Shown: one piece after another, positions 13,175 to 57,652 of the stretch
Layout of the letters: the number at the start of each line of letters is the position of its first letter
Position numbering within the stretch: the first letter of the stretch is position 1
Source: Streptomyces griseoruber
GTDB lineage: Bacteria; Actinomycetota; Actinomycetes; Streptomycetales; Streptomycetaceae
Assembly (NCBI RefSeq): GCF_001514205.1
Contig: NZ_KQ948770.1
Span: forward strand, 298,057 to 362,056
Length of the DNA: 64,000 nucleotides
Direction of reading: 5' to 3'
The notes under the pieces: generated by a model
What the model saw: the letters and a program-made list of their open reading frames with translations, nothing else
The model's database searches: none
Told to the model about the DNA's origin: nothing
Program-made: the position numbers and the translations under genes

Positions 13175-14773
<1,599 letters not shown>

Positions 14774-39060: not shown

Positions 39061-40032
39061 ATGCCTGCAGTGACCGTCGAGAACCCGCTGACGCTGCCGC
39101 GTGTCGCCGCGTCGGCCGAGGCCGTGGCGCGTCCCGTGCTGGGTGTCACGACCGCGCCGAGCGGTTTCGAAGGTGAGGGTTTCCCCGTTCGCCGGGCGTT
39201 CGCGGGGATCCACTACCGCCATCTGGATCCGTTCATCATGATGGATCAGATGGGTGAGGTGGAGTATCAGCCTGGGGAGCCGAAAGGGACCCCGTGGCAC
39301 CCGCACCGCGGCTTCGAGACCGTCACCTACATCATCGACGGGATCTTCGACCACCAGGACAGCCAGGGCGGCGGCGGCACCATCACCAACGGCGACACCC
39401 AGTGGATGACGGCCGGCTCGGGTCTGCTCCACATCGAGGCGCCGCCGGAGTCGCTGGTCATGTCCGGCGGTCTCTTCCACGGCCTGCAGCTGTGGGTGAA
39501 CCTGCCGGCCAAGGACAAGATGATGGCGCCGCGCTACCAGGACATCCGCGGCGGGCACGTACAGCTCCTCACCACCCCCGACGGCGGTGCGCTGCTGCGG
39601 GTCATCGCCGGCGAGCTGGACGGGCACGCGGGGCCGGGCATCACCCACACCCCGATCACCATGGTTCACGCGACCCTCGCGCCCGGCGCGGAGCTCACTC
39701 TTCCGTGGCGGGAGGACTTCAACGGCCTGGCGTACGTCCTCGCGGGCAAGGGCGCGGTGGGCGCGGAGCGCCGTCCGATCCACCTGGGTCAGACCGCGGT
39801 CTTCGGCGCGGGCTCCTCGCTGACGGTCCGCGCGGACGAGAAGCAGGATGCAAACACGCCGGACCTGGAGGTCGTGCTGCTGGGCGGACAGCCGATCCGT
39901 GAGCCGATGGCGCACTACGGCCCGTTCGTCATGAACACCAAGGACGAGCTGCAGCAGGCGTTCGAGGACTTCCAGAAGGGGCGGCTGGGAACGATCCCGG
40001 CAGTGCACGGCATGTCTGAGGGCGGACTGTAG
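39061..40032 (+). CDS. Pirin family protein, full-length copy spanning the element's left junction
   Basis: 323 aa bicupin pirin, with metal-type His in HLDPFIMMDQMG, WHPHRGFETVTYIIDG and HIEAPP and a C-terminal cupin. AAGGAGGT precedes ATG 39061. The first 222 bases (74 codons) are the host 5' part. From codon 75 (AAA 39283) the sequence is a second allele of the segment found again at 53766-54524. Third-position T codons are frequent before the junction and rare after it, so the gene appears mosaic. The locus corresponds to the S. coelicolor pirin gene that holds the phiC31 attB. Confidence 0.9.
   Translation: MPAVTVENPLTLPRVAASAEAVARPVLGVTTAPSGFEGEGFPVRRAFAGIHYRHLDPFIMMDQMGEVEYQPGEPKGTPWHPHRGFETVTYIIDGIFDHQDSQGGGGTITNGDTQWMTAGSGLLHIEAPPESLVMSGGLFHGLQLWVNLPAKDKMMAPRYQDIRGGHVQLLTTPDGGALLRVIAGELDGHAGPGITHTPITMVHATLAPGAELTLPWREDFNGLAYVLAGKGAVGAERRPIHLGQTAVFGAGSSLTVRADEKQDANTPDLEVVLLGGQPIREPMAHYGPFVMNTKDELQQAFEDFQKGRLGTIPAVHGMSEGGL
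39262..39305. other. Left junction of the element (attB-like)
   Basis: Around the probable AA crossover (39283-39284), the left arm CCTGGGGAGCCG and right arm AGGGACCCCGTGGCACCCGC both resemble the two halves of the phiC31 attB read in reverse. No phage-like P arm is visible here, unlike at the right end. Confidence 0.6.
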
Positions 40033-40119: not shown

Positions 40120-40170
40120 GGCCAGATCGGTGCCCTGCGGGGATCTTCCCCGCAGGGCACCGATCTGGCC
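40120..40170. terminator. Perfect 23-bp stem terminator
   Basis: Arms 40120-40142 and 40148-40170 (key arm GGCCAGATCGGTGCCCTGCG) with a 5-base loop, between the pirin gene and the convergent gene at 40256. Strong and bidirectional. Confidence 0.88.
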
Positions 40171-40255: not shown

Positions 40256-41158
40256 TCAGAAGAGTGGGATGCCGAGGTTTGCCGAAACCAACTGGGCAAC
40301 CCCTGTCCAGCCAAGGGCGGGCAGGTTGGCCCTGGCGCTCTGAAGCACCCTCTCCGCGAGCTGGCGAACCCGACCGGACTCAGGTGCGGCTATGGCGAGC
40401 TCCGTCTGCAGAGCCTCCACGTCGGCGACGACCATGGCTCGGACCTCCTCTGGCACGTCCGCTGACTGCGCGGCGGCCAGAACCTCGCGCGCGAACTGCG
40501 TGAGCTGCTGGGGGTCGTAGCCGAAGGTGTTGTTCTGGGTGTTGTCCTGTCCCATCTGGGGCGCGCCCCCGTTAACGGTGATGTTCCACTCGTTGTGGAT
40601 CCTGGGCTGTCGCTGATCGTTCAAGAAGTTCCTCACAGAGATGGGATCTTTGAACCCGCACTCGATGCCGAGGGTGGTCAGGGTGACGGCACGAACCGTT
40701 TGAGGCGACCGGGAATCAACCGTCACGATCCCGTTCGCCTCTAGGTATTCGACGGCCCGGAAGACTTCGGCAACCTCCAGAATTTCGTCCAGAACGGCCG
40801 TGCGCATGGAGCACAGGAAGTCGATCAACTCCAGTCGGGTCGTCGGGTAGGTCTCCATGGCGGCTGCTACAAGCCCGTTGATGGCATGGTCGAGCCTTAT
40901 GCGGGGGTTATCCCGGTCTGCAATGAGCCGCTCAGCTTCAGCTACTCCGTGTGCGGTGAGCGAGCAGGCCGTTCCAGAGGCACAGAGCTCGGTGTTGTGC
41001 ACCATGCCCGCGCCCCTGAGGTAGTCGATGAGGGCGACCAAGCCGTCATCGCCGGGCGGATACCAGAAAGGCTCCGCGTCCACCAAGGCTTGGGTGTCGC
41101 CGTTGGACTCCCCGCGCAGCCAGACCAGGAGCAGGTCCGCCTCTCTCTCGATCGTCAC
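40256..41158 (-). CDS. Unknown protein with winged-helix-like modules and an Asn/Gln-rich amyloid-like segment
   Basis: 300 aa, no named family recognised. Residues 1-190 look like two helical/winged-helix units (VALIDYLRGAGMVHN; AVEYLEANGIVTVDSRS). A short segment near 195-215, ITVNGGAPQMGQDNTQNNTF, is reminiscent of RHIM/BASS amyloid-signalling motifs (Q-hydrophobic-G, repeated Asn/Gln). The last ~85 residues form charged helices ending GWTGVAQLVSANLGIPLF. GTG 41158 lacks a good ribosome site, so the start is uncertain. Last gene of a leftward cargo group on the element. Confidence 0.6.
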   Translation of the reverse strand: MTIEREADLLLVWLRGESNGDTQALVDAEPFWYPPGDDGLVALIDYLRGAGMVHNTELCASGTACSLTAHGVAEAERLIADRDNPRIRLDHAINGLVAAAMETYPTTRLELIDFLCSMRTAVLDEILEVAEVFRAVEYLEANGIVTVDSRSPQTVRAVTLTTLGIECGFKDPISVRNFLNDQRQPRIHNEWNITVNGGAPQMGQDNTQNNTFGYDPQQLTQFAREVLAAAQSADVPEEVRAMVVADVEALQTELAIAAPESGRVRQLAERVLQSARANLPALGWTGVAQLVSANLGIPLF

Positions 41159-41267: not shown

Positions 41268-41768
41268 CTAACTCCAGCCGTCGAGTGAGACCTGCGGGCC
41301 TCCTGCGAGGTACTGATGGAGGGCACTGGCTGTGGTGTCCACGAATTCGTCGGGGATGGCGTCGGCGTCGACCCAGCGGACCTGGGCGTGTTTGCGTGGC
41401 TCGCGGTTTTCGGGTTCGCCGGTCCATTCGTGGGCAGCGAAGACGACGGTGAGGAAGCCGTTGGGGGCCTCCACACCCCAAGCGCCATGGATGATGTGGG
41501 CGACCTGCAGGGACTCTGGCTTCACGGTCAGGCCGGTCTCCTCGTACAGCTCCCGCACGGCCGTTTCCGTGATCGGCTCGCCGGGTTCGCTCTTGCCGAC
41601 AGGGAGGTCCCACATGCCCTGGGCGAACTTGGCGTTCTGGCTGCGCTGGAGGAGGACGACGCGGTTGGTGGCCTTGTCGTGGACGATGACGGCGGCGACC
41701 AGGAGGGTCATGGATTCGAGGGCGGGCGGGAGGGCTTTGGGCTGGTCGTCGGTTGTCCGCTGAGCCAC
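41268..41768 (-). CDS. NUDIX hydrolase
   Basis: 166 aa. NUDIX box, GX5EX7REUXEEXGU pattern: begins GKSEPGEPITETAV and continues RELYEETGL. Hydrolyses a nucleoside diphosphate linked to another moiety; substrate unknown. GTG 41768 sits behind AAGGGA, 36 bases after the XRE/TPR gene, so the two are probably co-transcribed. Confidence 0.86.
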   Translation of the reverse strand: MAQRTTDDQPKALPPALESMTLLVAAVIVHDKATNRVVLLQRSQNAKFAQGMWDLPVGKSEPGEPITETAVRELYEETGLTVKPESLQVAHIIHGAWGVEAPNGFLTVVFAAHEWTGEPENREPRKHAQVRWVDADAIPDEFVDTTASALHQYLAGGPQVSLDGWS

Positions 41769-41804: not shown

Positions 41805-43160
41805 TTAGGCCAGCGCTTCGCGTGCGCGGCGGGCGAGTTCGGCGGCTCCGGGCACTCTGCGGCGCTGGTAGATGGAGAGTGTGGAGCGGAGCGAGGTGAT
41901 CGCTTTGCGGGTGCGGCCGGAGGTCATGCCTTCCATGAGGGTCAGGGCCTGGGACCAGGCTGCTACGGCCTCGTCGGCCCGGGCCTGGGTGGCGAGGCTG
42001 TCGCCGAGGTCGGCGTAGGTGAGGGCGTGGACGCGCTTGTACTTCTCGGGGTCCCACCGGACCAGGGCGTCGCGGTGCTGCTGTTCGGTGCCGATGTAGT
42101 CGGCGAGGTCGGTGAGAGTGCGGGCGGTGTGGCTGGCGACGGTGCCGGAGGCGGGGCCGCTGACGCGGGAGTAGCTGGGCTGGGGACCGTCGTCGCGCAG
42201 TAGGGCGTCTTCGGCGGCGAGCAGGGCGCGGGCCGCTGCAGGTTTCTCGCCTGTGGCGGCGTAGGCGCGGGCGTGGGTGATGTGGAGGAGGGCCTCGGTC
42301 TGGCCGTCGACGTGGCCGAAGCTGCGGGCGAGGGATCCTTCGACGAGGTCCACGCAGTGGCGGGGCTGCTTGAGGCTGAGGGCCTGGTGGGCGAGGGCGC
42401 GCATCATCCAGGCGGCGTGTCCGTGGGGATCGGCTTCGCAGGCGAGTTGGTAGCCGACCTGGTAGTAGCGCTGGGCGGCACCTTCCTGGCCGAGGTCGTG
42501 GTGCTTCCAGCCTGCCAGGTAAGCGAGTTCGGCCACGGCGCCGAACGCGGCCTGTCGTAAGACTTCGTTCGGGTAGCGGCCTCGGAGCATGGGGGCGGCG
42601 GTGTCGGCGAGGTAAGCGGTGACCGTGGTCAGGCCGTGGCCGCCGCCGAGCCGTTCGTCGGCCGCACTGAAGGCTGCGGTGATTTGGCGTACGACGTCCA
42701 CGTCCTCTGTCCCGACCACGGACGTTCCGGTGCGAGCGCGGAGCATGCGGGCGGTGGCCTCGTGGTCGTGGGTGAGCGGCATGGCGACGCCGGCGGTGGT
42801 GAAGGCGGCCACCGCGAGGAAGCGGCGGCGCTCGACATCGGCACGGCCGAGGTCGGTTGCGGCCAGGACGGGATCCCGCTCGTCCGCAATCTCGGCGTCT
42901 GGTGCGCGCAGGCCGATCTCGGTCCGGCTGACGGTCCGGCCTGCCCGGCGTGACAGAGCTTCGGCGAGGTACTGGCCCGTCCGGCCGGTGGGCTGGCGGG
43001 TGCCGTTCACCCAGTGGGAGACGGCCGACTTGTTGGTCTGGAGGAGCTCGCCGTTCTCGGCCGCGATGCGTCGGATGTCCTTGGCCAGGGCCTCGTACGT
43101 GCAGCCGGTCGCGTCGATGATGTCGCGCAGGCGGGAGTTGGGTTCTCTCTGCGCTGCCAC
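41805..43160 (-). CDS. XRE-type HTH regulator with TPR-like domain
   Basis: 451 aa. N-terminal HTH (RLRDIIDATGCTYEALAKDIRRIAAE...TNKSAVSHWVNGTRQP) binds DNA, followed by a hydrophobic/Arg-rich linker (RRRFLAVAAFTTAGVAMP) and about 280 residues of TPR-like helices (LRQAAFGAVAELAYLAGWKHHDLG; ALTYADLGDSLATQARADEAVAAW). This architecture is common in Streptomyces regulators on mobile elements and near NUDIX and phosphotransferase genes. GTG 43160 has GGAGG six bases upstream. Divergent from the 43386 gene, so it may control both directions. Confidence 0.84.
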   Translation of the reverse strand: MAAQREPNSRLRDIIDATGCTYEALAKDIRRIAAENGELLQTNKSAVSHWVNGTRQPTGRTGQYLAEALSRRAGRTVSRTEIGLRAPDAEIADERDPVLAATDLGRADVERRRFLAVAAFTTAGVAMPLTHDHEATARMLRARTGTSVVGTEDVDVVRQITAAFSAADERLGGGHGLTTVTAYLADTAAPMLRGRYPNEVLRQAAFGAVAELAYLAGWKHHDLGQEGAAQRYYQVGYQLACEADPHGHAAWMMRALAHQALSLKQPRHCVDLVEGSLARSFGHVDGQTEALLHITHARAYAATGEKPAAARALLAAEDALLRDDGPQPSYSRVSGPASGTVASHTARTLTDLADYIGTEQQHRDALVRWDPEKYKRVHALTYADLGDSLATQARADEAVAAWSQALTLMEGMTSGRTRKAITSLRSTLSIYQRRRVPGAAELARRAREALA

Positions 43161-43332: not shown

Positions 43333-43364
43333 CCGGGTTCGGGCATTCCTGTGCCCGAACCCGG
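43333..43364 (+). terminator. Leader hairpin before the rightward cargo operon
   Basis: Perfect 13-bp stem CCGGGTTCGGGCA / TGCCCGAACCCGG (43333-43345 and 43352-43364) with a 6-base loop, ending 21 bases before GTG 43386. Candidate attenuator or terminator in the divergent promoter region (43161-43385). Confidence 0.65.
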
Positions 43365-43385
43365 CCGATCAGAGACGGAGACACG

Positions 43386-44135
43386 GTGACCACCATCGAC
43401 ACCACGGCCATCACGGTCCTACTGCCCGACGCGTTCGACGAGCGCTGGAGCCGCCTGCCCGGCATCCACGTCGACGGCCGGCGCATCACCATCGACCCGG
43501 CCGAGTACTTCTTCCGCTTCGAGTCCAGCTCCTGGCTCGTCGCCAACTGGGAGCTGGTCAAGTCCCATCTCTTGGACGTGGAGGAGACCACCGAGAGCGC
43601 GGTCGAGCAGCTCGCGCTGGACTTCATCAAGGCCCACGCCACCTCCACCTCGGACGCCGCCAAGGTGCTCTCCACCGCCTACGAGGTGTACGCCTACCTC
43701 TTCCGCGAGGAGCACCTCGCCGGCCTCGGCCTGCCGCAGATCACCGCCGAACACCTGCGGATGCTGCGCGAGGCGGCCACGCTGATGGCGCTGAACAAGG
43801 TGGAGCTGGACGGGCACATCTCCAACGTCGGCCCCTGCTGGTTCTTCCCCGCCGCCACGTCCGTCGTCTTCGACCTGGACGACGAGATGGGCGGCATGCT
43901 CGACGAGGTCTACCACGGCGGCTGGTTCAACGAGCACCGCCGCATCGAGTCCATCAAGGCCCACGCCGCCCTCGGCGGACGGCTCGTGCACGGCTGTCAG
44001 TCCGTGCCGGACCAGTCCGGCGGTGTCGTGGCGCCCTACGGTGCCTCGATGGCCACCTTCCGCAACGACCTCGCCGCTTTCAAGGCCGGCTGGATCGAGC
44101 AGGTCTACGCCCACCGCGTGAGCCCTGCCGCGTAG
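43386..44135 (+). CDS. Unknown cytosolic protein, first gene of rightward cargo group
   Basis: 249 aa, not recognised. No signal peptide or membrane segment. Contains Trp/Phe-rich helices (ESSSWLVANWELVKSHLLDVEE), a central helical region (LRMLREAATLMALNKVELDG) and a Gly/His-rich C-terminal part (VYHGGWFNEHRRIES; LVHGCQSVPDQSGGVVAPYG). GTG 43386 has GGAG upstream; reading further up would pass through the leader hairpin. Followed by the APH-like, methyltransferase and HAD genes. Confidence 0.7.
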   Translation: MTTIDTTAITVLLPDAFDERWSRLPGIHVDGRRITIDPAEYFFRFESSSWLVANWELVKSHLLDVEETTESAVEQLALDFIKAHATSTSDAAKVLSTAYEVYAYLFREEHLAGLGLPQITAEHLRMLREAATLMALNKVELDGHISNVGPCWFFPAATSVVFDLDDEMGGMLDEVYHGGWFNEHRRIESIKAHAALGGRLVHGCQSVPDQSGGVVAPYGASMATFRNDLAAFKAGWIEQVYAHRVSPAA

Positions 44136-44229: not shown

Positions 44230-45141
44230 ATGGAAACGAGCCTCAACGCCGATCTCCTGGACAACCTGCTGACCATCGCAGGCCGGTCCACCGCTGCGCG
44301 CGAGGAGGTGCGGGTGTGGTCGATGTCCGGCGTCGAGCGTCTGACCTTCACCGACGGCACCACCGCCATCTTCAAGTACGCCAAGAAGCCGTTCGACAGC
44401 GAGGATCAGGCACTCCGGCTGGCCCGCACCCTCGGTGTCCCGGTGCCTGCCGTTCACGCCTCAGCGGTCGTGGACGGCTGGCTCGGGATGCTGCTGGAGG
44501 ACCTCGGCGCTCCCGCCCGCGAGGCCGACGACCTCGACGGTGCCACTGCCGCCGTCGTTCTGCACCGCACCCGCACGGCTGCAGCCCTGCCGGTCCTCGA
44601 CCGGGAAGGGCTGCGCAGGCTTCCGAGCCGGGCTCTGGAGCACCTCGGCCAGCTGCGCAAGGCCGAGCGGTGGCAGGACGCCGACGATGTCGAGGACGCT
44701 CTCGTCCGGATCGCACATGGCGCCGAGGCCCGCTCGGTGGGTACTGCAACGGCGCCCTTCGGCTGGGTGCACTCCGAGTTCCACCCCACCAGCCTCCACA
44801 TCGGCCGACACGGCTGGAGGCTCCTGGACTTCGCCCGCGCCTTCACCGGCCCCGGCCTGCTCGACCTCGCCAGCTGGCATGGCACCCTCGACACCCCCGA
44901 CCCCGTACGCCTGCGCGTCTTCCTGGAGACCTACGTCACCGAGGGCGGCACCCCCGACGCCCTCACTCCGCGCGGTGGGCTCACCGCCGAGAACTGGGCG
45001 CTGGGTTGGCACCGCATGTGGGCCGTCGAGTGGTTCATGGAGCAGTCCATCCGCTGGATCAACGACCCGGCCACCGACCCCGCCTACATCAAGGCCGTAC
45101 GCCGCCACCTCACCGATGTCCTCCACCTCCTGGAGGTCTGA
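44230..45141 (+). CDS. APH-fold phosphotransferase-like protein with altered catalytic loop
   Basis: 303 aa. The layout is that of aminoglycoside/choline kinase-like enzymes: a Lys in TAIFKYAKKPF, a Brenner-type loop WVHSEFHPTSLHI and a downstream LLDFARAFTGPGLLDLA. The usual HGDxHxxN is HSEFHPTS, so the catalytic Asp is Glu and the metal-binding Asn is Ser; activity may be altered or lost. ATG 44230 has GGAG seven bases upstream. Probably modifies a small molecule made or met by the element; substrate unknown. Confidence 0.72.
   Translation: METSLNADLLDNLLTIAGRSTAAREEVRVWSMSGVERLTFTDGTTAIFKYAKKPFDSEDQALRLARTLGVPVPAVHASAVVDGWLGMLLEDLGAPAREADDLDGATAAVVLHRTRTAAALPVLDREGLRRLPSRALEHLGQLRKAERWQDADDVEDALVRIAHGAEARSVGTATAPFGWVHSEFHPTSLHIGRHGWRLLDFARAFTGPGLLDLASWHGTLDTPDPVRLRVFLETYVTEGGTPDALTPRGGLTAENWALGWHRMWAVEWFMEQSIRWINDPATDPAYIKAVRRHLTDVLHLLEV
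45131..45136 (+). promoter_or_regulatory. Ribosome binding site that sets the methyltransferase start
   Basis: GGAGGT six bases before GTG 45143. It shows that translation was designed to begin upstream of the in-frame TAG at 45206, whereas the downstream GTG 45218 has no such site. Confidence 0.75.
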
Positions 45142-45142
45142 C

Positions 45143-45838
45143 GTGCTCGCCCAGGCGTCCCCCTGGTACGTCCACGCTCTTCAGCGCACCACGGCCAGTC
45201 CCGCCTAGCCGCTGTCCGTGCCCGCGCGGATGGAATGGACCACGCGGCCCGGCAGCGGGCCCGGCGCCGACATCCTCGGCCAGGATCTGCGCCGCAAGCG
45301 GCTGCTGGAACTCGGCTGCGGTCCCGGCCACAACGCTGCCCACGTTGCCACCCGCTACGGTGCCCAGGTCACCGGCGTCGACCTCGTCGGCCTGCAGGTC
45401 CGTCGAGCCCGCTCGCACTACGGCCGGCTGAACAGCCTCACCTTCGTGGCGGGCCATGCCCTGTACTACCTGCAAGCCTCGGACGAGCAGTTCGACGCGG
45501 TTTACTCCGTCTTCGGCGCTATCGGGCTCGTCGCCCCCGAACTCCTGCTCCCGGCCATCGCCCAGCACCTCAAGCCCGGCCGCACTCTCGCCTTCTCCGT
45601 ACCTCACCCGCAGCGCGGCGGCCTCCGCCCGGCCACCGACGACCGGCCGCGCCGCGACTACGTCACCCTCCCCGACCGCACCCGACTGCCCATCGCTCGC
45701 TGGGACTTCGACGCCGACCGCTGGGAGAAACACCTCGACCGCGCCGGCCTCTGGCTCACCTCGGCCCAGGAGTTCCACGACGCCCGCCACGGAGGCCGTT
45801 GGCCCACCACCCTGCTGATCACCGCGCGCAAGCTCTGA
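45143..45838 (+). pseudogene. SAM-dependent methyltransferase interrupted by in-frame TAG
   Basis: Frame from GTG 45143 reads VLAQASPWYVHALQRT, hits TAG at codon 22 (45206-45208), then continues in the same frame as SVPARMEWTTRPG and a class I methyltransferase with motif I LLELGCGPGHNAAH and post-I GVDLVGLQ. A good Shine-Dalgarno fits only the upstream GTG. A shorter 206-residue product could start at GTG 45218 by reinitiation, with the fold core intact. Two bases separate the preceding stop from the start. Substrate unknown. Confidence 0.72.
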
Positions 45839-45868: not shown

Positions 45869-46447
45869 ATGCGCCCGCCCTACCTGCTCCTCGACATCGA
45901 CGGCGTCCTCATACCTTTCCCCGACGCGGAGGGCTCGACCCCAGCCACTCACGCCCGCCACGACGTCGTCCCCACCGGCCGCAGCGCCGACGACCCGGTC
46001 ACCATCTGGCTCAACCCCGCCCATGGGCCCATGGTCATGGAAGTGATCCGTAACGGCATGGTCACGCCAGTCTGGTGCACCAGTTGGCGCCAGGACGCCG
46101 CCACTCTGATCGGACCGCTCCTCGGTCTCCCACCCCTGCCGCACGTCGATCTTCCCCGCCCCAAGATCACAACAAGCCACCCCAATGGTTACCTGTGGAA
46201 GCGCGACTACGTTGATGTGTGGCTGGCTGACGCCCCCGCTGTGTGGATCGACGACGACTTCACTGACCTCGACCACTCCTGGGCCGCGGAGCGCACCGCC
46301 CGTGGCGCGGCGACCCTGCTGGTACAACCTGATCCCCGTGCCGGGCTGCAGGCTGAACACCTGGCCGAAGCCCGAGCGTGGGCCGGGCGGCTGCTCGCCG
46401 TGCGGCCCGGTGCACCCGCTGCCCCGAGCGGAACCGAAGCAGCCTGA
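45869..46447 (+). CDS. HAD-like phosphatase-family protein
   Basis: 192 aa. HAD motif I is LLDIDGVLIPF (DxDGV), and the later acidic motif is AVWIDDDFTDLDHSW. Resembles the short HAD-domain proteins found beside NUDIX and kinase genes on Streptomyces mobile elements. Likely a small-molecule phosphatase; substrate unknown. ATG 45869 follows GGGAGA. Last gene of the rightward cargo group. Confidence 0.78.
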   Translation: MRPPYLLLDIDGVLIPFPDAEGSTPATHARHDVVPTGRSADDPVTIWLNPAHGPMVMEVIRNGMVTPVWCTSWRQDAATLIGPLLGLPPLPHVDLPRPKITTSHPNGYLWKRDYVDVWLADAPAVWIDDDFTDLDHSWAAERTARGAATLLVQPDPRAGLQAEHLAEARAWAGRLLAVRPGAPAAPSGTEAA

Positions 46448-46512: not shown

Positions 46513-48207
46513 TCAGCGGTGTCGACCACGTTCTTCGGGCGTCATGTTCGCTGGTGTGGCCGGAGGATGTGGAGCGGCGGACGTGGACGTCGTGCCGCTG
46601 ATGGTGCTTTGCCTACGTCCTGCGTGAGCGCGCCTGTTCGGTTGAGCAGTGATGCGCCAGTTGAGGACTTCGGCGGGATGCTCAGCACTATCGAGTTCCC
46701 GCCGGGCGCCGACCTCGGACAGGAGGCGCCGGGGGTTGTGGCCGGCGGTCTCGGCGCGGGCGAGGGTGGTGGTCAGGGCCGGCCAGGCGGGATCGGAGAG
46801 GACGCGGTCGGCGTGGTCGGGGAAGGCTGCGCGCAGGTCCTGCTCGAAGCGGCTGGCGGTTGTGGCGCGCGGTGCGCGACGGGCGAGATCCGCGAAGACT
46901 GGCTGGGCGGCCTGCTGGTAACCGGCCTGCAGGTGGCGGAAGGCTTTTTCGGCCGCTGCGGCCTGCTGCTCGTGACCGCGCTGCTCATGCCACTTGGCGG
47001 CGGCGCGCGCCACGTGGAGCGCGGCGAAGATCAGGGCAACGGCGAGTCCGCCCGGATCGTGTGTGGCGTAGGCGAGTTCCTTGGCTGCTTCCCGCAGGGC
47101 GGTGGCTGCCTGGTGGTCGACCCGGATCGCCGAGCGGCGGGCGCGGTTGAACGCCCTTGCTGCTGCTTGCAGTTCGGCCCGGTGCCCACCGTTGATGGCG
47201 AGGGACAGGTTGTGGAGAGCCTCGCCGAAGGCATCCAAATGCCCCTGGGCCACGGTGTCGTCGCCCGAGTCGAGGACGGCGTGGGCGTCGCGGATGGCGA
47301 TTTCGGCGCGGTGCCACGGTTCGGCCGGGTCCGCCAACTGCTGGGGGCGGTCGGCCAGGGGCTGGGTGGGGAGTCGTTCACACAGGCGGTTGTAGGCCAG
47401 GTCGGGGGCGAGGCTTGAGCCGCCGAACCAGATGGGCTCGCCGTGCGTGGTGTCGCCGGGTGCGGCCAGGCTGTAGCCGGTCACCTCGCCGGTCTCGGGG
47501 CCGATGCGCGGTTTGACCTGGATGCCGAGGGAGCGCAGCACGGTGAAGTACTCGTCGATGCTGCGTACGGCGGCGGCGACCGCGTACGCTTGCTCGCGCA
47601 GCCACTCCCGCGCGGCCTTGTCCTGGCCTTGGCGCTCGGCCTTCGCGCGCTCGGCGCCGGTCGGGGTGCGCGGGGCGGTGAGGTCGCCGGACTTCAGACG
47701 GCGCAGCCCGAACTCGGCCTCGATCTTGCGGCATTCGAGCTGTGCCCGCCAGCCGTCCCGGTTCGTGCGAGGGCGGCGGCCGTCGGCGCGGACGGTGGTG
47801 GCCATGATGTGGATGTGGTCGTCGGCGTGCCGGACCGCGATCCATCGGCACGCCTTCTCGTCACCCTCGGGGGCGATGCCCGTGGCGGCGACGACGCGGC
47901 GGGCGACCTTGGCCCATTCGGCGTCGGTGAGGTAGCGGTCGCTGGGCGCGGTGCGTACGGGGCAGTGCCATACGTGTTGTGGCGGCTTCTTGCCGCCCAG
48001 CTCACGGGTGCGCAGGTCGACGTGGTGGTCCAGGCGCCGGGCGAGCTGGGTGTAGGTGGCAGCGGGGTTGCGGCCGGGATCGGGGGCACCGGCCATGTCC
48101 CAGGCGGCCACGATGTGGGGGTCCTTGTGCTCGTCGCGCCGCCCCTTGCCGAAGAGGTAGTTGACCAGGCCGAGCGTGCTGGAGCCGGTGGAGACGTCAG
48201 GCACCAT
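46513..48207 (-). CDS. HUH relaxase/mobilization nuclease
   Basis: 564 aa. The HUH metal motif in AVRHADDHIHIMATTVR lies about residue 125-142, and the rest is long charged helices. The early segment STLGLVNYLFGKGRRDEH suits the catalytic domain of actinobacterial MobA/VirD2-like relaxases that nick oriT and stay covalently attached to the strand transferred. The catalytic Tyr is not certain; Y17 (NYLFG) is a candidate. Overlaps the MobC-like gene by 11 bases. Confidence 0.85.
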   Translation of the reverse strand: MVPDVSTGSSTLGLVNYLFGKGRRDEHKDPHIVAAWDMAGAPDPGRNPAATYTQLARRLDHHVDLRTRELGGKKPPQHVWHCPVRTAPSDRYLTDAEWAKVARRVVAATGIAPEGDEKACRWIAVRHADDHIHIMATTVRADGRRPRTNRDGWRAQLECRKIEAEFGLRRLKSGDLTAPRTPTGAERAKAERQGQDKAAREWLREQAYAVAAAVRSIDEYFTVLRSLGIQVKPRIGPETGEVTGYSLAAPGDTTHGEPIWFGGSSLAPDLAYNRLCERLPTQPLADRPQQLADPAEPWHRAEIAIRDAHAVLDSGDDTVAQGHLDAFGEALHNLSLAINGGHRAELQAAARAFNRARRSAIRVDHQAATALREAAKELAYATHDPGGLAVALIFAALHVARAAAKWHEQRGHEQQAAAAEKAFRHLQAGYQQAAQPVFADLARRAPRATTASRFEQDLRAAFPDHADRVLSDPAWPALTTTLARAETAGHNPRRLLSEVGARRELDSAEHPAEVLNWRITAQPNRRAHAGRRQSTISGTTSTSAAPHPPATPANMTPEERGRHR

Positions 48208-48940
48208 GGCCGGCCCCTTCCGCCAGGAGCTGGTCCAGCAGTGCGTAACTGGCCTGGGCGGCCTGCTCGATACGGTCGAGGACGGCCTCGGCGCGCTCGG
48301 GTATCGCGCCGGAGTGGATGGCTGCCGTGATCTGGTTGAGGTTGGTGCCGATCCGGTTCAGAGCCTTGGTGTGCGCTTCGATGGCCTCCACCAGTGGGCG
48401 GATGGGGTCGTCCTCCGGACTGCCGACCATGCCCGCCTTGCCGAGCGCGACGGCGAGGGCGGCGTCGCCGACGAAGCCGGCGAACTTCTGGCGGCGCCGC
48501 TTGGCCTCGGCGTCGATGAGGCGGACCGCGGTCGGCGTGAAGCGGATCTTCTTCTCCTGGTCGCGCTTCTCGGTCGTGCGCTTGCGGTTCATCCGCGCGG
48601 GCAGCGCGGGGGCGTCGGGCTCGCGCCATGAGGGCTGCTCGAGGGCGGCGGGCGGTTGGGGATTGGCAGACGGCTCGGCGTCTGAGGTGATGGAGTCGGC
48701 GACGGGCTGCTGGGGGCTGTCGGCGGCAGACGTGCTGCGGGGCTCGTCCACCCCCTCCTCAGGCTCGGACGCCCGCTGGCGCCCGGCCCTCTCTTCCTCC
48801 GCCACCCCAGAGGCGGGGGCAAGCGCGGACGAAGCCCCGTTAGGGGCTCGTTCGCTCCAGCTTGCTGCTGTTCGTCGGTCCCGGCTGAACCAACCCCAGC
48901 GGCGAGAAGAAGAGGGGTCCGTGTCGTTCTTGGTGTGCAT
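48197..48940 (-). CDS. MobC-like relaxosome accessory protein
   Basis: 247 aa. A disordered Ser/Pro/Glu-rich N-terminal half is followed by a basic domain (RKRTTEKRDQEKKIRFTPTAVRLIDAEAKRRR) and the MobC signature NRIGTNLNQITAAIHSG. Accessory proteins of this kind bend oriT for the relaxase. ATG 48940 is adopted; the frame remains open upstream (TTG 49012). Directly upstream of the relaxase gene and translationally coupled. Confidence 0.82.
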   Translation of the reverse strand: MHTKNDTDPSSSRRWGWFSRDRRTAASWSERAPNGASSALAPASGVAEEERAGRQRASEPEEGVDEPRSTSAADSPQQPVADSITSDAEPSANPQPPAALEQPSWREPDAPALPARMNRKRTTEKRDQEKKIRFTPTAVRLIDAEAKRRRQKFAGFVGDAALAVALGKAGMVGSPEDDPIRPLVEAIEAHTKALNRIGTNLNQITAAIHSGAIPERAEAVLDRIEQAAQASYALLDQLLAEGAGHGA

Positions 48941-49123
48941 GGTGGTGCTCCGCAGGAGAGGGGGATGGGGCCGTGTCACGTCCGTCGCATCCGTCGCATG
49001 CCTGGTCAGCACAGGTACGGATACGCGGCCAGGTACGGAGAAGTCCGTCCCGGCGAGAGAGTCCGTCCCCGCGCTGACCTGCGCGGGGACGGATGTGACG
49101 CAGTGATACGGACCCCGGCGGGA
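48941..49123. other. Candidate oriT region
   Basis: 183 bases upstream of the MobC-relaxase operon, the usual place for oriT. Holds a 9-bp tandem repeat TCCGTCGCA (48981-48989, 48990-48998), a perfect 13-bp stem TCCGTCCCCGCGC / GCGCGGGGACGGA (49062-49074, 49081-49093) and several GTACGGA/TCCGTAC-like short repeats. The nick site cannot be identified. Confidence 0.45.
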
Positions 49124-50908
49124 TCAGAGAGTGCGCTTGAGTCCGGCGGGGCCACCGGGCGGGCCGACAGGCAGCACCCCCGCCGGGGCGGCGGGCGGCC
49201 TGCCCTGGGCCATGCGGGCAGGGGCAGCGCCGCGTTCGGGCTCGGGTGCCGCCTCGACGAGGTCGGGGCAGTTGCGGGCCCAGGCGTCCAGGAATCGGTT
49301 GCGTATGTATGCCTTGGCCTGCCTGCCCTTGTCGAAGCGGTAGTTGGCCGGGCTGATGTTGAAGTCCCGCAGCAGGTTGCTCAGGTGGTAGGCGTTCAGC
49401 CCTTTGGAGCCGTGCTCCGCCCACGGGGCCTCGGCGTCCTGGAGCAGCGCGGCGACCAGATCCTGGGTGGACAGGGCCTTGGGGTTCTCCGCCTGCGCGA
49501 AGATGCGATGGATGTCGCGCAGCAGCCGCGTCTTCAGGCTGCTCTGCTCGTCCTGGACCGCTTCGTGGCGGGTCATGGCCAGGCAGGCGGCACGAGCCTG
49601 GGCGGGCCAGTGGCCGCCGGCCAGGTCGGCGATGATGACGAGCGGCTCCCAGGTGTCCGCCGCCCGGTCCTCCACCGGCATCTGCGGCACCATGCGGGCA
49701 GCCTGCCCGCGCAGCGGGCCCAGCCAGGCGGCCAGCTGATCACGCAGCGCGTTGAGTTCGGGCACCGAGTACCGGGAGCGGAAGGGGACGACCCTTTCGC
49801 CCGGCTTGCGCTTCTGCATCCGCAGAACGACCGCCCGGTCCATGATCGTGTCCGGCAGGTCGCCGATCCCCGCGATGGCGGCCATGGCGAAGGTGGGGAA
49901 CGGGGTCGGTTTGTGGTCCGGACCGGAGATCCGCCAGGCGGGCCGGTTGCGCTGGTGCCCGGCATTCAGTAGGCCGCGCAGGATCTCACTGTCGCCGCTC
50001 GCCTTGGGGCCGAAGATGGTGTCCGCCTCGTCCACCAGCAGGGTGGGCGGGTTCTTGCCGATGATGCGGAAGATGACCGCCGGGGACGTGTTCACCGTCA
50101 TCATCGGCTGGTGCACGGTCTCGTGGAGCACGTCCAGAACCCGGGACTTGCCGCATCCCTTCGTCGGGCTGACCACTGCCAGACGGGGCGCGTGCTGCAG
50201 AGCCGTCTGGATGTGCGTGGCCGCCACCCATAGGGTGGCCGCGGTCAACGCCTCCTCGCTGGGCAGCACCACGTACCGGCTGATCGCCGTTCGTAGTTCG
50301 TCCAGCAGCACGGCTCCCTCGACGGCCACCTGGCCGCCTGCATCAGCACGGTCACCGGTCCCCGACCCGTTGTCGGGGACCGTGGTCCCCGAAGTGCCCT
50401 GGGGGCCGTCCCCACGGCGATCCCCTTTCGTGGTCTGAGCGACCGGAACTCGGGGACCGGATCCGGGGGTCGGCTGACCGGAAGTCCCCACCAGGTCCCC
50501 GGCTTCCGGTCCGTCTGTGCCAGCATGGCCTGCACTGCCGGGTCCGGTCCGCAGGGCGTTGACCTGCGGATCCTCTGCCAGGGCAGGGGTGATCGTCGAG
50601 CGTGCGGTCCCTATCTGTTCCGGGGACCGGTCCCCGGCGTCCATTGCTTTGATGCCATGCGTGGTCCCCAGGCCCGATAGGGGATCACCGTTACTCGCTG
50701 AGCCAGGCAGCGGATCGACTGCGGTGGCCCGCTCCCCGGGGCCGGAGCCGTGGGGACCGACCGGCTCAGCAATGCGGTCCCCGCCCTGAGGAAAGGCGGG
50801 GTCTCCGTCTGGATTTGATCCGAGCGACAGCATCGTCTGGCCGGGAATGGCGACCGGCGGCCAGATGGCCTTCGTGGTGTTCTGCGGCTTGGGGAAGGTG
50901 GCTTCCAT
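49124..50908 (-). CDS. DUF3631-domain ATPase (possible replication/helicase-like protein)
   Basis: 594 aa. The first ~200 residues are low-complexity (Gly/Pro/Ser/Asp). Walker A is SPTKGCGKSR and Walker B is TLLVDEADTIF, followed by the DUF3631 region (HQRNRPAWRISGPDHKPTPFPTFAMAAIAGIGDLPDTIMDRAVVLRM...). Such proteins occur on actinobacterial plasmids and phages, where they are thought to aid replication. The C-terminus is a winged-helix-like segment (LSNLLRDFNISPANYRF) then a Pro/Gly tail. Whether it initiates replication of an excised circle is inference. Confidence 0.78.
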   Translation of the reverse strand: MEATFPKPQNTTKAIWPPVAIPGQTMLSLGSNPDGDPAFPQGGDRIAEPVGPHGSGPGERATAVDPLPGSASNGDPLSGLGTTHGIKAMDAGDRSPEQIGTARSTITPALAEDPQVNALRTGPGSAGHAGTDGPEAGDLVGTSGQPTPGSGPRVPVAQTTKGDRRGDGPQGTSGTTVPDNGSGTGDRADAGGQVAVEGAVLLDELRTAISRYVVLPSEEALTAATLWVAATHIQTALQHAPRLAVVSPTKGCGKSRVLDVLHETVHQPMMTVNTSPAVIFRIIGKNPPTLLVDEADTIFGPKASGDSEILRGLLNAGHQRNRPAWRISGPDHKPTPFPTFAMAAIAGIGDLPDTIMDRAVVLRMQKRKPGERVVPFRSRYSVPELNALRDQLAAWLGPLRGQAARMVPQMPVEDRAADTWEPLVIIADLAGGHWPAQARAACLAMTRHEAVQDEQSSLKTRLLRDIHRIFAQAENPKALSTQDLVAALLQDAEAPWAEHGSKGLNAYHLSNLLRDFNISPANYRFDKGRQAKAYIRNRFLDAWARNCPDLVEAAPEPERGAAPARMAQGRPPAAPAGVLPVGPPGGPAGLKRTL

Positions 50909-50973: not shown

Positions 50974-51864
50974 TCAGGCGGCAAGGCTCAGCGCAGCGCT
51001 GGACGCCCAGGGGCCGAGCACTTTCACAACGGGCTTGTGGTAGCAGACCCGGCGGCCATTTTGGGTCGGGAACTCGACCGTTTGGATCGCGAGTTCGCAA
51101 AGCGCAGCGTCACCCACCGTGGCCAGTTGAGTGCGTATCCGTTGTACCCCCTCGGCGAAGCGCCAGGAGGAGGACCTGAAGCGGAACGAGCCGACGTTAG
51201 GGCATCCAGCCAGGTGGAACAGAAGTGTCGTGATCGGCTGCGGCCCTTGGCCGGCCCTGGCCCGCGCCCTGCGCTCGGCCATGGTCGGCGGGCATCCGCA
51301 AGGGTGACCTGCATCAGCTTCCGGGGACAGGAACGCACGCCCGTCGCAGTGGTGCGCCAGGCCACGGGAGTCCCACAGCTTCATCTGCCCTGTCAGCCTG
51401 TCAGCATTTTCGATGACGACTCGGAGATTGGCCTTCTCGGCTACGACTTCGAACTGCTCCAAGCCGTTGGCCAATCGCCGCTGCGGCTCGGCTCCGAGCG
51501 CGCTCGCGATGCTCTCCGCCACATGGGGCGACACCGTGAGCAGGCGCCAGACCGGGCGGGTGAGCAGCTTGCCGTCGACGACGCGGCCGAAGTCGCAGTC
51601 ACCGGCGACTGGTTCGGATGCCCTGGACAGAGAGCAAGTGTGAGGGGTGCCGAGTCGCTGACGGTGAGTGGTGCGCGGTCGGGTGCAGCCATGCGTCGCG
51701 GCGTTGCGATGCCGTCGGCGATGGCCAGAACAGTCGCCGTCGGTCGGCGAAGCGGCGGCCGGGCTGGGCGCGGGGTTGTGCAAGAGACGGCTCCTGACGG
51801 TTGGGAGACGCAGGGGCGCCAGAGCAGCGACGCGGCTGCCTGGAGCCCCCGAGGACACCGTCAA
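50974..51864 (-). CDS. gp3-like recombination directionality factor (start uncertain)
   Basis: The frame covers 296 codons. The conserved part begins near codon 90 (GRVVDGKLLTRPVWRLLTVSP) and has motifs of phage/actinobacterial RDFs: MKLWDSRGLAHHCDG, GCPPTMAERRARARAG, FHLAGCPNVGSFRFRSSSWRF and a C-terminal RRVCYHKPVVKVLG. Such proteins bind a serine integrase and switch it to excision. The first ~85 codons show no similarity I recognise; TTG 51864 is only the frame limit and a later start is likely. Lies downstream of the integrase gene in the same direction. Confidence 0.72.
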   Translation of the reverse strand: MTVSSGAPGSRVAALAPLRLPTVRSRLLHNPAPSPAAASPTDGDCSGHRRRHRNAATHGCTRPRTTHRQRLGTPHTCSLSRASEPVAGDCDFGRVVDGKLLTRPVWRLLTVSPHVAESIASALGAEPQRRLANGLEQFEVVAEKANLRVVIENADRLTGQMKLWDSRGLAHHCDGRAFLSPEADAGHPCGCPPTMAERRARARAGQGPQPITTLLFHLAGCPNVGSFRFRSSSWRFAEGVQRIRTQLATVGDAALCELAIQTVEFPTQNGRRVCYHKPVVKVLGPWASSAALSLAA

Positions 51865-51875
51865 TGCTCCGGAGA

Positions 51876-51900
51876 ATCGCCGGTTTCGCTAACCGGCGAT
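51876..51900. terminator. Hairpin between integrase and directionality-factor genes
   Basis: Perfect 10-bp stem ATCGCCGGTT / AACCGGCGAT (51876-51885, 51891-51900) with a 5-base loop, downstream of the integrase stop on the minus strand. Probably limits read-through from the integrase gene into the RDF gene. Confidence 0.75.
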
Positions 51901-51941
51901 GTCGGTGTACTCTCCCTCGCTCGTCTCGGTTCAGCGGCACG

Positions 51942-53720
51942 TCAGACCGCTTCTGCAAGCACCTCCGGCTGCCTCGATTCGCCAGTCTCTGCGTCATCGC
52001 CCTCGGCCTGTTCCGGTCGTACGAACTCGACCGCCGCCCGCTTCTCGACGGGCGTCGACCTTCCCGCGCCGGTCGCCTTGGTAACCGTGACCCGGCGCAC
52101 GAACAACTTGACGAAGTCCCGGCGCTCCTGGGTCGTAGCGGCCTCCCACCACGAACCCTCGCCTACCGGATCGACGTCCCCCGCGCCCAGGGGCAGCCAC
52201 AGGTGGATCGGGAGCGTTGGCGTCGCCGCCTCTTCCAACTCGGTGAGACGGGCCTCCGCCCGCTCCATACGGCCGAGGAGCCGTTCCCTGCGCTCCCTGA
52301 ACCGGCGCCGTCCGACGGGGTCGTCGTAGTCGCCGGCCTCTTCCCTGTCGTAGAGCTCTTCCAATGCGTGCTTGGCATCGGCCCGTTCGGTGACGAGGCT
52401 TCGGCGTTCGCCCACGATTTCCGGCTGTTCCGTCTGTGCCGCGTACCGACGGGCGGCCTCGGCGAGGAAGACCGCCGTTTCGGGGTCGTCCTCGGCCGTC
52501 TGGATGAGGGCGAAGACCCGCCGGGCAACGTACAGGTCCAGGGTCTGCATGCTGATGGTGCACTCGCCCTCGTGCTGGCCCGGCAGCGCTTTCCGACGGC
52601 GGCAGCGGTACGCGGCCTTGTTGGGAGTGGTGGCCCGGTGCGACGTCATCACCGCACCGCAGTCGCAGAACAGGACGTCCATGGCGGAGAGGACGGCGTG
52701 TCCGCGCGACAGGCCCTTGCCCTGGCCCCTGCCGTCGAGCCACTTCTGCAGTTCGTGCCAGTCGTCCGGCGGGATGATCGGCGGGCACGCCTGGACCGGC
52801 TTCATGGTCTCGGGGTCGCGCTCGATGCGGTAGCTCTCGATGGTGCTGGTCAGCTTGCCGTCCTCCCGGCGCTTGTACACCGGGGTCGCCGCGTAGCCCG
52901 CGATGCGCGGGTCGCGGAGGATGCGCATGGCCGTCTTCGGATCCCAGATACTGTCCTTCGTCTTCTTGCCGACCCGCTGCCCCTTCGTCGGCACGCCGTC
53001 GGCGGTCATCTGAGCGCAGATGCCCGTGAGGGAGCCCGGATGCCGGCGTCCTCCTCCGGGCCGGTACGGCATGTCCTTGTGCTCCTTGATCCGCGCCCAC
53101 ATGTCCTGAATCACCGGCACCTCGTCGGGATCGTGCTCCAGGACATGGATCACGACGGGCCTGCCGTCGGTCGTCGTGCGCGTCGCGGGGACCATGCGAA
53201 AGCCGTACGGCGGCTTGCCGCCCACGTAGCCACCGAGTTCACGGGCCGTCTTCTTCGCGCCCCGCACCGCGTCGCTCTTGTTCTTGCTCTCGCTGTGAGC
53301 CGCGTCGAGCCGCAGGATCAGATGGATCAGGTCCATCAGATTGCCCTTGCGGAACTCGCCCTCGGTGAGGCTCACGATCGTCACGCCGAGGTTGAGCAGC
53401 TCCGTGACGATCGGGATGGCGTCGAGCGGGTCCATCCGCGACAGGCGGCTGATGTAGTAGACGATGATCAGGTTGATCCGGCCGTCGTGGCAGTCTTTCA
53501 GAAGCCGGTCGAAGTCCGGGCGGCCGTCGCCCGTGAACGCGGATATGCCGAGGTCCTCGTACTCGGTGATGCTGACGGCCCCGCGCCGCTTCGCCTCGGC
53601 CACGCCCGCAGCGCGCTGTGTGACCGTGCTGACCTCGGACTTGTTGGCGCGCCCCACGGACTGACGCCCATAGACACCTGCATGGATGTCCATGCCGGTC
53701 ACCACCCCTGGTCTGATCAT
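51942..53720 (-). CDS. int: phiC31-family large serine integrase
   Basis: 592 aa. The N-terminal resolvase domain has the catalytic Ser21 in GVYGRQS and the YYISRLSR motif. The recombinase domain contains GGYVGGKPPYGFRM and RILRDPRIAGYAATPVYK, and the zinc ribbon CDCGAVMTSH...YRCRRRK...HEGEC is followed by a coiled coil (about 425-510). It matches phiC31 Int along its length, including the start (PGVVTGMD / QGVVTGVD). Inserts DNA at attB through a 2-base crossover. ATG 53720 lies 45 bases from the right junction. Confidence 0.93.
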   Translation of the reverse strand: MIRPGVVTGMDIHAGVYGRQSVGRANKSEVSTVTQRAAGVAEAKRRGAVSITEYEDLGISAFTGDGRPDFDRLLKDCHDGRINLIIVYYISRLSRMDPLDAIPIVTELLNLGVTIVSLTEGEFRKGNLMDLIHLILRLDAAHSESKNKSDAVRGAKKTARELGGYVGGKPPYGFRMVPATRTTTDGRPVVIHVLEHDPDEVPVIQDMWARIKEHKDMPYRPGGGRRHPGSLTGICAQMTADGVPTKGQRVGKKTKDSIWDPKTAMRILRDPRIAGYAATPVYKRREDGKLTSTIESYRIERDPETMKPVQACPPIIPPDDWHELQKWLDGRGQGKGLSRGHAVLSAMDVLFCDCGAVMTSHRATTPNKAAYRCRRRKALPGQHEGECTISMQTLDLYVARRVFALIQTAEDDPETAVFLAEAARRYAAQTEQPEIVGERRSLVTERADAKHALEELYDREEAGDYDDPVGRRRFRERRERLLGRMERAEARLTELEEAATPTLPIHLWLPLGAGDVDPVGEGSWWEAATTQERRDFVKLFVRRVTVTKATGAGRSTPVEKRAAVEFVRPEQAEGDDAETGESRQPEVLAEAV

Positions 53721-53740: not shown

Positions 53741-53790
53741 TTTGACCCCCCAACTGGTTTCACCCAAGGGCACCCCCTGGCACCCGAACC
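53741..53790. other. Right junction of the element (attR-type hybrid)
   Basis: Element side: GACCCCCCAACTGGTTTCAC (53744-53763), similar to the CCCCAACTGG arm of phiC31 attP. Host side from 53766: AAGGGCACCCCCTGGCACCC, the reverse complement of the phiC31 attB half GGGTGCCAGGGCGTGCCCTT apart from one base. Crossover is presumed at AA 53766-53767. Confidence 0.8.
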
Positions 53791-54524
53791 GCGGCTTCGA
53801 GACCGTCACCTACATCATCGACGGCATCTTCGACCACCATGACAGCCAGGGTGGCGGCGGCACCATCACCAACGGCGACACCCAGTGGATGACGGCCGGC
53901 TCGGGCCTCCTCCACATCGAGGCGCCGCCGGAGCACCTCGTCATGTCCGGCGGCCTCTTCCACGGCCTCCAGCTGTGGGTGAACCTCCCCGCCAAGGACA
54001 AGATGATGGCGCCGCGCTACCAGGACATCCGCGGCGGCAACGTCCAGCTCCTGACCACCCCCGACGGCGGCGCGCTGCTGCGGGTCATCGCCGGCGAGCT
54101 GGACGGCCACGCGGGCCCCGGCATCACCCACACCCCCATCACGATGATCCACGCGACGCTCGCGCCCGGCGCGGAGCTGACCCTCCCCTGGCGGGAGGAC
54201 TTCAACGGCCTGGCGTACGTCCTGGCGGGCAAGGGCACGGTCGGCGCCGAACGCCGTCCGATCCACCTCGGCCAGACCGCCGTCTTCGGCGCGGGCTCCT
54301 CGCTGACCGTCCGCGCGGACGAGAAGCAGGACTCCCACACCCCGGACATGGAGGTCGTCCTCCTCGGCGGACAGCCGATCCGTGAGCCGATGGCCCACTA
54401 CGGTCCGTTCGTCATGAACACCAAGGACGAACTGATGCAGGCCTTCGAGGACTTCCAGAAGGGCCGCCTGGGCACCATCCCGGCGGTGCACGGGATGACG
54501 GAGGCGGGGCCGGAGGCGTCGTAA
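53766..54524 (+). pseudogene. Displaced 3' part of the host pirin gene
   Basis: 252 codons plus stop without a start codon, beginning KGTPWHPNRGFETVTYII and ending GMTEAGPEAS. Corresponds to codons 75 onward of pirin and continues the frame of 39061-39282. About nine-tenths identical by eye to the copy at 39283-40032. Presumably silent where it is. The host-typical C-rich third positions and final residues (PEAS) differ from the left allele. Confidence 0.88.
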
Positions 54525-57310: not shown

Positions 57311-57461
57311 GGAGGGCGGCGAGGTTGGTGGGGGTGAGGGGGAGTATTCGGGTGGGGTCGTCGCTCTCGCGGAGGAGGAGGTCGGTTTCGGTGGCGGCGA
57401 GTTCGAGGCAGTCGTTGCCGTCGGCACCGCCGGAGTACGTGGATTTCTGCCACTGAGTCAC
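57282..57461 (-). CDS. DUF397 protein, copy 2
   Basis: 59 aa, too short for many gene finders. Starts at GTG 57461 with TQWQKSTYSGGADGNDCLEL and continues LLLRESDDPTRILPLTPTNLAALL, the full DUF397 pattern. Its start overlaps the stop of copy 1 by four bases (GTGA), so the two are coupled. DUF397 proteins usually accompany an XRE regulator; none is adjacent here. Confidence 0.82.
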   Translation of the reverse strand: MTQWQKSTYSGGADGNDCLELAATETDLLLRESDDPTRILPLTPTNLAALLTHLHADRP

Positions 57462-57652
57462 GGCTGCCCCGTACCCTCCGCGCGGAGGCGCTGGAGAAGC
57501 GCAGCGAGGCTGCTGGGAGCGATGGGGAGTATTCGCGTCGGTTCGTCGCTCTCACGAAGGAGCAACGAGCGGTGGTCGTGAGCGAGCTCGACGCACGAGG
57601 CCCCGTCCGAGCCGCTTGAGAAGGACGATTTCTGCCACTGGATCACGCCCAT
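57458..57652 (-). CDS. DUF397 protein, copy 1
   Basis: 64 aa: MGVIQWQKSSFSSGSDGASC, then a LLLRESDEPTRILPIAP segment, the DUF397 signature. ATG 57652 follows GAAGGAGCT. Likely small regulatory partners of HTH proteins in differentiation; close tandem paralogue of copy 2. Confidence 0.85.
   Translation of the reverse strand: MGVIQWQKSSFSSGSDGASCVELAHDHRSLLLRESDEPTRILPIAPSSLAALLQRLRAEGTGQP

Follow-up and report, generated by a model that had tools for sequence, protein, structure and literature searches.

How can an element inserted within a host gene lie beside a complete copy of that gene? The question is raised by a stretch of 64,000 nt from Streptomyces griseoruber (contig NZ_KQ948770.1), called here the window, in which a non-phage, mobilizable element of ~14.5 kb sits in the phiC31 attB site within the gene for pirin. 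The element encodes a phiC31-type large serine integrase and a Gp3-family recombination directionality factor (RDF). On its left the element is bordered by a full-length pirin gene, and on its right by a 3' fragment of native pirin. An earlier note on this DNA dealt with the integrase and RDF genes, and its coordinates (50974-53720) miss the attachment site, the pirin target and the second pirin. Genomes are designated below by G numbers, G000 being that of the window.

It is likely that the locus is the product of an integrative mobilizable element that entered host pirin carrying a complete rescue pirin with a rewritten attB, and that was later degraded by homologous recombination. The integrase would insert the element into attB inside host pirin. 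A complete pirin with its own leader, positioned just inside attL, would let the native promoter read into a working copy once the gene has been cut; the anatomy of the carried gene is seen in relatives, from which its expression by the native promoter is presumed. The rewritten attB would block attack of the integrase on the element's own pirin in the circular form, and would also protect the occupied locus. The gp3-like RDF, judged by its homology, would let the integrase excise the element and restore native pirin. Homologous recombination among the three pirin copies may then degrade the arrangement. Loss of the 5' fragment together with attL would lock the element (window, G235, G313 and G314), while recombination between the 3' copies would delete it (G335 and G310); both losses together, to judge from the states seen, would reduce the locus to one pirin gene, marked by the rewritten site as a scar. 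The window has already passed the first of these steps, the 5' merger with loss of attL.

Carried pirin genes in related elements

The related elements were found by integrase searches, independently of the pirin signature described below. In G311 (Streptomyces sp. SPB162) the integrase and the RDF are 93% and 75% identical, respectively, to those of the window. G311, G312 and G084 share the order native promoter and 5' pirin fragment up to attB, P' arm, leader, complete pirin, cargo, RDF, integrase, attR and native 3' fragment. The complete target gene lies inside the att sites in these three elements; for the window, attL being lost, this position can only be deduced. The leader of the carried pirin holds in all three a sequence that by eye resembles a ribosome-binding site. 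Pairing of integrase and RDF recurs in G311 and G312, both with a relaxase, in G314 and in G084. The G084 element resembles an actinomycete integrative and conjugative element (AICE), with RepSA, an FtsK-like protein, a GntR regulator and a Gp3-like RDF.

G235, whose integrase is 97% identical to that of the window, G313 and G314 (the two element ends of the latter being on separate contigs) have the organization found in the window: a full pirin with native-type upstream sequence and a 3' fragment are present, and the 5' fragment was not found. The 5' pirin copies are merged in these three genomes and in G000. In G335 and G310 the 5' fragment and the element leader are kept and no integrase is present within about 20 kb; aspS is localized about 2.5 kb and 4.3 kb downstream, respectively. 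The P' arm is intact in G335, which represents the left half of the arrangement including attL, and is not intact in G310. In G169 the full pirin is open and the 5' fragment is shortened to 46 residues; the integrase is 41% identical, and of the 3' fragment, as judged by eye, a barely recognisable remnant persists. In G138 an integrase lies beside pirin and the site is rewritten differently.

The merger in the window was mapped with a 40-nt scan against the 5' ends of 42 native and four carried pirin genes. The left pirin is native-like to about nt 140-180 (about 39200-39240) and carried-copy-like beyond; relative to G013, its 3' part is 96% identical and its 5' part 86%. Its 5' untranslated region is of the native type and the element leader is not present. 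In G235 the switch from native to carried sequence occurs later, near nt 200, and since the switch points differ the two mergers may be separate events. A blastn search with the pirin region found no N-terminal pirin fragment elsewhere in the window, and a scan with the G311 arm found no attL P' arm in it (all matches had 7 or more mismatches in 21). The P' arm being gone, the attL x attR substrate is missing in the window. Excision needs attL, so the window copy is probably locked; integrase and RDF should no longer excise it.

The proposal that related integrases generally carry rescue copies was rejected, as four loci (L140-L143) and seven of ten viral contigs have no direct repeat of at least 80 nt beside the integrase. 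At locus L150 there is one 93-bp repeat, about 2.5 kb from the integrase. Pirin was absent from the analysed DNA of the four loci and of the ten viral contigs. Integrases at E <= 1e-100 occur in 17 genomes of the genus, in five beside pirin and in 12 with flanks of 1.5 kb that are free of pirin. When the search for integrases was widened, at E <= 1e-200, three of 392 genomes matched, none of them new, and the 112 records with an integrase match in a plasmid collection were all below 60% identity. The leader pattern was discarded as a means to find elements: it matched 23 of the 392 genomes (at most 2 mismatches), and pirin adjoined it at three of the 20 loci among the matches listed (G310, G335 and G084). 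The remaining matches look like chance because a reversed control pattern also matched several genomes.

The rewritten attB and its spread in the genus

The rewritten attB of the window differs from the common native sequence at positions -17, -16, -15, -11, -8, +2, +5 and +11, and the rewriting is mostly synonymous. The available text of PMC5937489, citing Gupta 2007, describes recognition of phiC31 attB as depending critically on positions -/+15 and -/+16, and recombination on -/+2. Position -15 is not C in any of nine integrase-linked copies, +2 is changed in eight of them and -16 in six, in contrast to the native left arms adjoining attL (G084, G311, G312 and G335), where all four have C at -15. 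When the native 5' fragment is compared with the carried copy in three genomes, 16 of 51 left-arm positions are changed versus 91 of 615 elsewhere in the fragment (p 0.0045). The rewritings of G138 and G169 differ from the others yet alter -15 and +2 too. The carried gene is probably a rescue copy of the target that resists the integrase.

A general pirin-site pattern was detected in 270 of 295 genomes of the genus, and the signature of the rewritten site (at most 2 mismatches) in 19. The integrase is in place in three of these, while the other 16 have none in the stretch analysed. In 13 of the 16, those with aspS on the analysed DNA, the pirin-aspS distance is 3.4-5.7 kb, compared with 3.5-3.8 kb in three native genomes. 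A set of 63 full pirins was compared, 21 of them rewritten (the 19 with the signature, G138 and G169) and 42 native; 38 of the native ones were picked from the pattern sites listed, a few of them for odd sequences. The nine sites that differ most between the 19 and the 42 are all at pirin nt 207-234. Mean identities among rewritten genomes and between rewritten and native ones are 92.3 and 81.6 around the site, 85.8 and 86.0 in the pirin 5' part, 86.9 and 86.2 in its 3' part, and 89.4 and 89.5 for aspS (15 rewritten and 39 native genomes, the gene being confirmed by Pfam). Neither aspS nor pirin outside the site separates the two groups. The aspS tree (56 genomes, 17 of them rewritten, after seven without aspS were dropped) requires at least 12 changes of state and the pirin tree built without the site at least 15, and a single clade of the 19 was rejected in a quick tree (p about 1e-57). 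Rewritten sites that lack an adjoining integrase and are scattered over the tree have the appearance expected of a scar.

None of the 21 rewritten pirins has an internal stop, nor does that of G335; the carried copies of G311-G314 have none either, three of these being cut before the stop. Among the 42 native pirins, the translated stretch of two (G288 and G158) contained a stop. Given the open frames of the rewritten genes, and the eroded native fragments beside an open full pirin in G169, the full copy appears to be under selection.

The main rivals to a recoded rescue copy are passive divergence of the carried gene and a resistance allele that came first, and a number of observations weigh against the preferred account. 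Both att sites are on the analysed DNA in three elements only. Integrases of 40-61% identity at other loci have no pirin or duplicated target nearby, and in two of the 16 signature genomes without an adjoining integrase (G205 and G271) an integrase of 50-53% identity is encoded elsewhere. The window also has a rearranged right flank, as described below. The site difference of the 19 genomes is circular, because the set was chosen by the signature; their scatter over the tree is not. Other points concern resistance itself. Changes of the right arm are not enriched within genomes (23 of 112 versus 787 of 4989, p 0.19, seven genomes). The centre of the carried copy of G312 is still the native CCCAAGGGG. 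In G313 the right arm of the native 3' fragment is of the rewritten type and carries A at +2, the only one of seven native right arms to do so. From these two exceptions, integration into a partly rewritten site, or gene conversion with one, seems to occur. Four of 42 native alleles lack C at -15. The right-arm result, the G312 core and the G313 right arm weaken a simple claim of immunity.

Passive divergence would keep the rescue copy as real and attribute its attB differences to source lineages with other pirin alleles or codon use, followed by drift. The native core of G312, the lack of right-arm enrichment and the native alleles with A at -15 (3 of 42) or with CAG (G142 and G281) are what drift could leave. 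It accounts poorly for the alteration of -15 in all nine integrase-linked copies next to its conservation in the four native arms by attL, for the enrichment in the left arm, for separate rewritings in G138 and G169 that hit the same -15 as well as +2, and for a short conserved tract that recurs across the tree. Passive divergence is held to be unlikely.

Somewhat less likely still is that the rewritten site was first a host allele resisting phages or elements of the phiC31 group, which spread by recombination and was later acquired by elements. The 16 of 19 signature genomes with no integrase beside pirin agree with such an origin, but G310 and G335 keep the element leader and the 5' fragment by a rewritten pirin without integrase, as a scar predicts. 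The other 13 signature genomes, those of the 16 with aspS, do not decide the matter since no such remnant appeared in the pirin searches.

Integrase, directionality factor and layout of the element

The earlier note had recognised a phiC31-type integrase gene in tandem with a gp3-like RDF gene, separated by a hairpin, on a mobilizable element outside a phage genome. These features are all found in the sequence (Table 1). The integrase matches PF00239 (E 9.7e-19) and PF07508 (E 6.1e-8) in Pfam, both above cut-off, and the integrase family phrog_95 in PHROGs (E 4e-80). Its identity to phiC31 Int is 52.9% over 95% of the query; the catalytic serine S12 and W526 are conserved while I420 and I582 are replaced by valine. 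The profile search that the note had proposed for the 51864-50974 product yielded PF18897, Gp3-like, at 39.7 bits (cut-off 23.6) and phrog_9220, whose function is blank in PHROGs, at E 1.3e-49 over residues 86-288. The family matches start only at residue 86. The nearest phage relatives listed are mostly annotated as recombination directionality factors, with 44% as the best identity, and the identity to phiC31 gp3 is 34%, over 83% of the query after trimming. Residues G27, M105, C117, G119, P154, P168 and L170 of gp3 are needed for binding to Int, as given in the accessible part of PMC5814800; six of the seven are identical in the window RDF and L170 is changed to V. The relaxase, MobC and DUF3631 genes that follow the pair have no PHROGs match, which places it outside a phage genome for the open reading frames (ORFs) scanned.

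The RDF ORF is open in the window, yet the codon at the position of the likely G311 start is not a usual start codon, and a long open frame extends upstream. In codons 91-180 the window RDF shows weak codon-position bias when compared with that of G311. Read by eye, the likely RDF start of G311 (locus L162, near 14750) overlaps the stop codon of a short ORF upstream of it, an arrangement known from translational coupling. The RDF gene is open in G311, G312, G084 and G314, truncated in G235 and interrupted in G313. The interruption (locus L137, about 12425-13689) is ~1.2 kb of DNA whose frames are transposase-like by eye. Decay of the RDF after attL loss is plausible; the cases are few, and G314, which lacks the 5' fragment, keeps an open RDF.

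The hairpin folds at -19.1 kcal/mol (z -3.0), a value equalled by two of 200 shuffles. G235 has an equivalent stem, and G311 a slightly shorter one. A role as terminator was rejected, the consensus terminator scan having no match at the hairpin. It is improbable that, as the earlier note suggested, a working int/RDF switch controls excision of this copy with the hairpin separating integration from excision: the key gp3 residues are conserved and the hairpin is real and conserved, but the window has no attL P' arm, the start codon of the RDF is uncertain and the scan reveals no terminator. The pairing of a gp3-family RDF with a phiC31-type integrase on a mobilizable element is supported; a working switch in this copy is not.

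That the full pirin is simply native, the 3' fragment deriving from an unrelated duplication or a second element, is very improbable in spite of the native-type promoter region of the left pirin and the rearranged right flank, as it is contradicted by G311, G312, G084 and G335, which show a native 5' fragment, attL and a carried full copy, and as the right fragment differs from the corresponding 3' part of the left pirin in its pattern of identity to relatives.

Table 1. Features of the pirin-inserted element in the window (nt positions within the 64,000-nt stretch)
Feature	Position	Strand	Details
Full-length pirin, read as the element rescue copy merged with the native 5' end	39061..40032	+	323 aa
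Rewritten attB inside full pirin	39265..39302	+	central AA 39283-39284
Inverted repeat after full pirin, terminator-like	40120..40170		24 bp, perfect, 3-nt loop
Cargo ORF	40256..41158	-	no Pfam or NCBIfam match
NUDIX protein (cargo)	41268..41768	-	PF00293
NsdA-family regulatory protein (cargo)	41805..43160	-	NF053720, 358.8 bits (cut-off 75)
Cargo ORF	43419..44135	+	3' part of ORF 43014-44135; no Pfam or NCBIfam match; homologues in G235 and G311 elements
Cargo ORF	44230..45141	+	no Pfam or NCBIfam match; homologue in G235 element
Methyltransferase (cargo)	45218..45838	+	PF13649
HAD-domain protein (cargo)	45869..46447	+	PF18143
Relaxase, MobA/VirD2-like	46513..48207	-	PF03432, E 9.2e-8
MobC-like mobilisation protein	48197..49012	-	PF05713, 23.9 bits (cut-off 23.2)
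DUF3631 protein	49124..50908	-	PF12307, E 2.8e-69
Gp3-family RDF ORF	50974..51864	-	296 aa; family matches span about 51000-51609; start codon uncertain
Hairpin between integrase and RDF genes	51876..51900	-	perfect 10-bp stem; fold scoring versus shuffles
phiC31-type large serine integrase	51942..53720	-	592 aa; Pfam, PHROGs and phiC31 Int comparison
attR	53747..53784		P arm 53747-53765 (CCCCCAACTG), central AA 53766-53767, native pirin B' arm
Native pirin 3' fragment left by integration	53766..54524	+	91% identical to 3' part of full copy

The phiC31 record has the same CCCCCAACTG attP arm at an equal distance from the central AA as at 53747. Twelve ORFs of the element were put to Pfam and no transfer-apparatus domain, including the FtsK/SpoIIIE type, was found among them. 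The presence of integrase, relaxase and MobC without a transfer apparatus in these ORFs is that of an integrative mobilizable element. Compared with AICEs, the element has the replication protein (RepAM, PF12307) and, among these ORFs, lacks the transfer protein of the FtsK/SpoIIIE type. NsdA relatives influence antibiotic production in Streptomyces, and with an NsdA-family regulator among its cargo the element might influence host metabolism. The window genome encodes a second large serine recombinase (G000:C3:591917-593530), 36% identical.

G013, G007 and G020 have a single uninterrupted pirin with the same left neighbours as the window. On the right, a segment of at least 7.8 kb with aspS (58531-66348, numbered as in the window) has the opposite orientation to that in G013 and G007 and is bounded on both sides by unmatched DNA; colinearity with G013 resumes near 72.9 kb. 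The pirin-aspS order is the usual one in the other elements and in native genomes, and the inversion, which starts shortly after the 3' fragment of pirin, has the look of a local event separate from the insertion. Segment 54669-57310 codes for a secreted-looking protein and an ADP-ribosylglycohydrolase in DNA without match in three relatives. At 57292-57647 two repeat families (86 and 66 nt) have two copies each, 185 bp apart, which suggests a small tandem duplication. To the left of the element, a 24-bp tandem repeat array (34007-34315) contains the only tRNA called by ARAGORN, a tRNA-Pro at 34139-34230 that is probably spurious.

Relation to known systems

Streptomyces genetics uses the phiC31 attB in pirin as a standard site of integration. 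Should the rewritten allele prove refractory, poor uptake of phiC31 vectors by some strains could be due to it, and it would provide a direct test of which attB bases matter. The locus would, if the reading as a recoded rescue copy is true, provide a natural example of a mobile element that compensates for the gene broken by its insertion with a recoded copy, and of element scars that act as resistance alleles. The gp3-family RDF on mobilizable and AICE-like elements takes the phiC31 switch beyond phages.

The integrase and RDF families, serine-integrase AICEs and integration with replacement of a gene end are already known; the part that appears to be new is the complete attB-rewritten copy of the target on an integrase element. 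No title or abstract on such a copy was found in a literature search whose scope left most subscription papers outside.

The closest system is phiC31 with int, gp3, attP and its attB in pirin SCO3798, to which the window element is alike in an integrase 53% identical, a gp3-family RDF, the same target gene and the same attP arm motif. Pirin SCO3798 is described as inactivated by phiC31 insertion in the accessible part of PMC5937489. Unlike phiC31, the elements described here carry relaxase or replication and transfer genes, together with a further pirin whose attB is rewritten.

They also resemble AICEs with serine recombinases, through DUF3631 in the window and the RepSA, FtsK-like and GntR genes of G084. 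DUF3631 (PF12307) corresponds to RepAM, the replication-initiator domain of actinomycete elements, and serine integrases are reported on 19 of 144 AICEs, both in the available text of PMC3218068. In that text no gp3-like RDF or carried target gene is mentioned, and one serine-integrase AICE is without identifiable RDF. The window element differs from AICEs by its relaxase and MobC, with no FtsK-like gene among the ORFs scanned.

Several elements keep their target functional because integration supplies replacement sequence, as in SXT at prfC, phage 21 and e14 at icd, SCCmec at rlmH and elements that target tRNA genes. In all of these, the replacement concerns a single gene end, located at the att junction, whereas here the whole gene and its own leader lie inside the element and the att site is rewritten.

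Synthetic Cleave-and-Rescue gene drives disrupt a gene of the host and bring with them a recoded version that is resistant to the disrupting enzyme. Whether the pirin elements are a natural form of this strategy, breaking the host gene, carrying a recoded integrase-immune copy and, by homologous recombination, leaving immune alleles (the 16 of 295 genomes with the site and no adjoining integrase) that would protect lineages from phages and elements of the phiC31 group, we regard as evenly balanced. Cleave-and-Rescue drives are engineered nuclease systems of eukaryotes, while the pirin elements would be natural, bacterial and based on a serine integrase, with a resistance predicted from the sequence of the carried gene.

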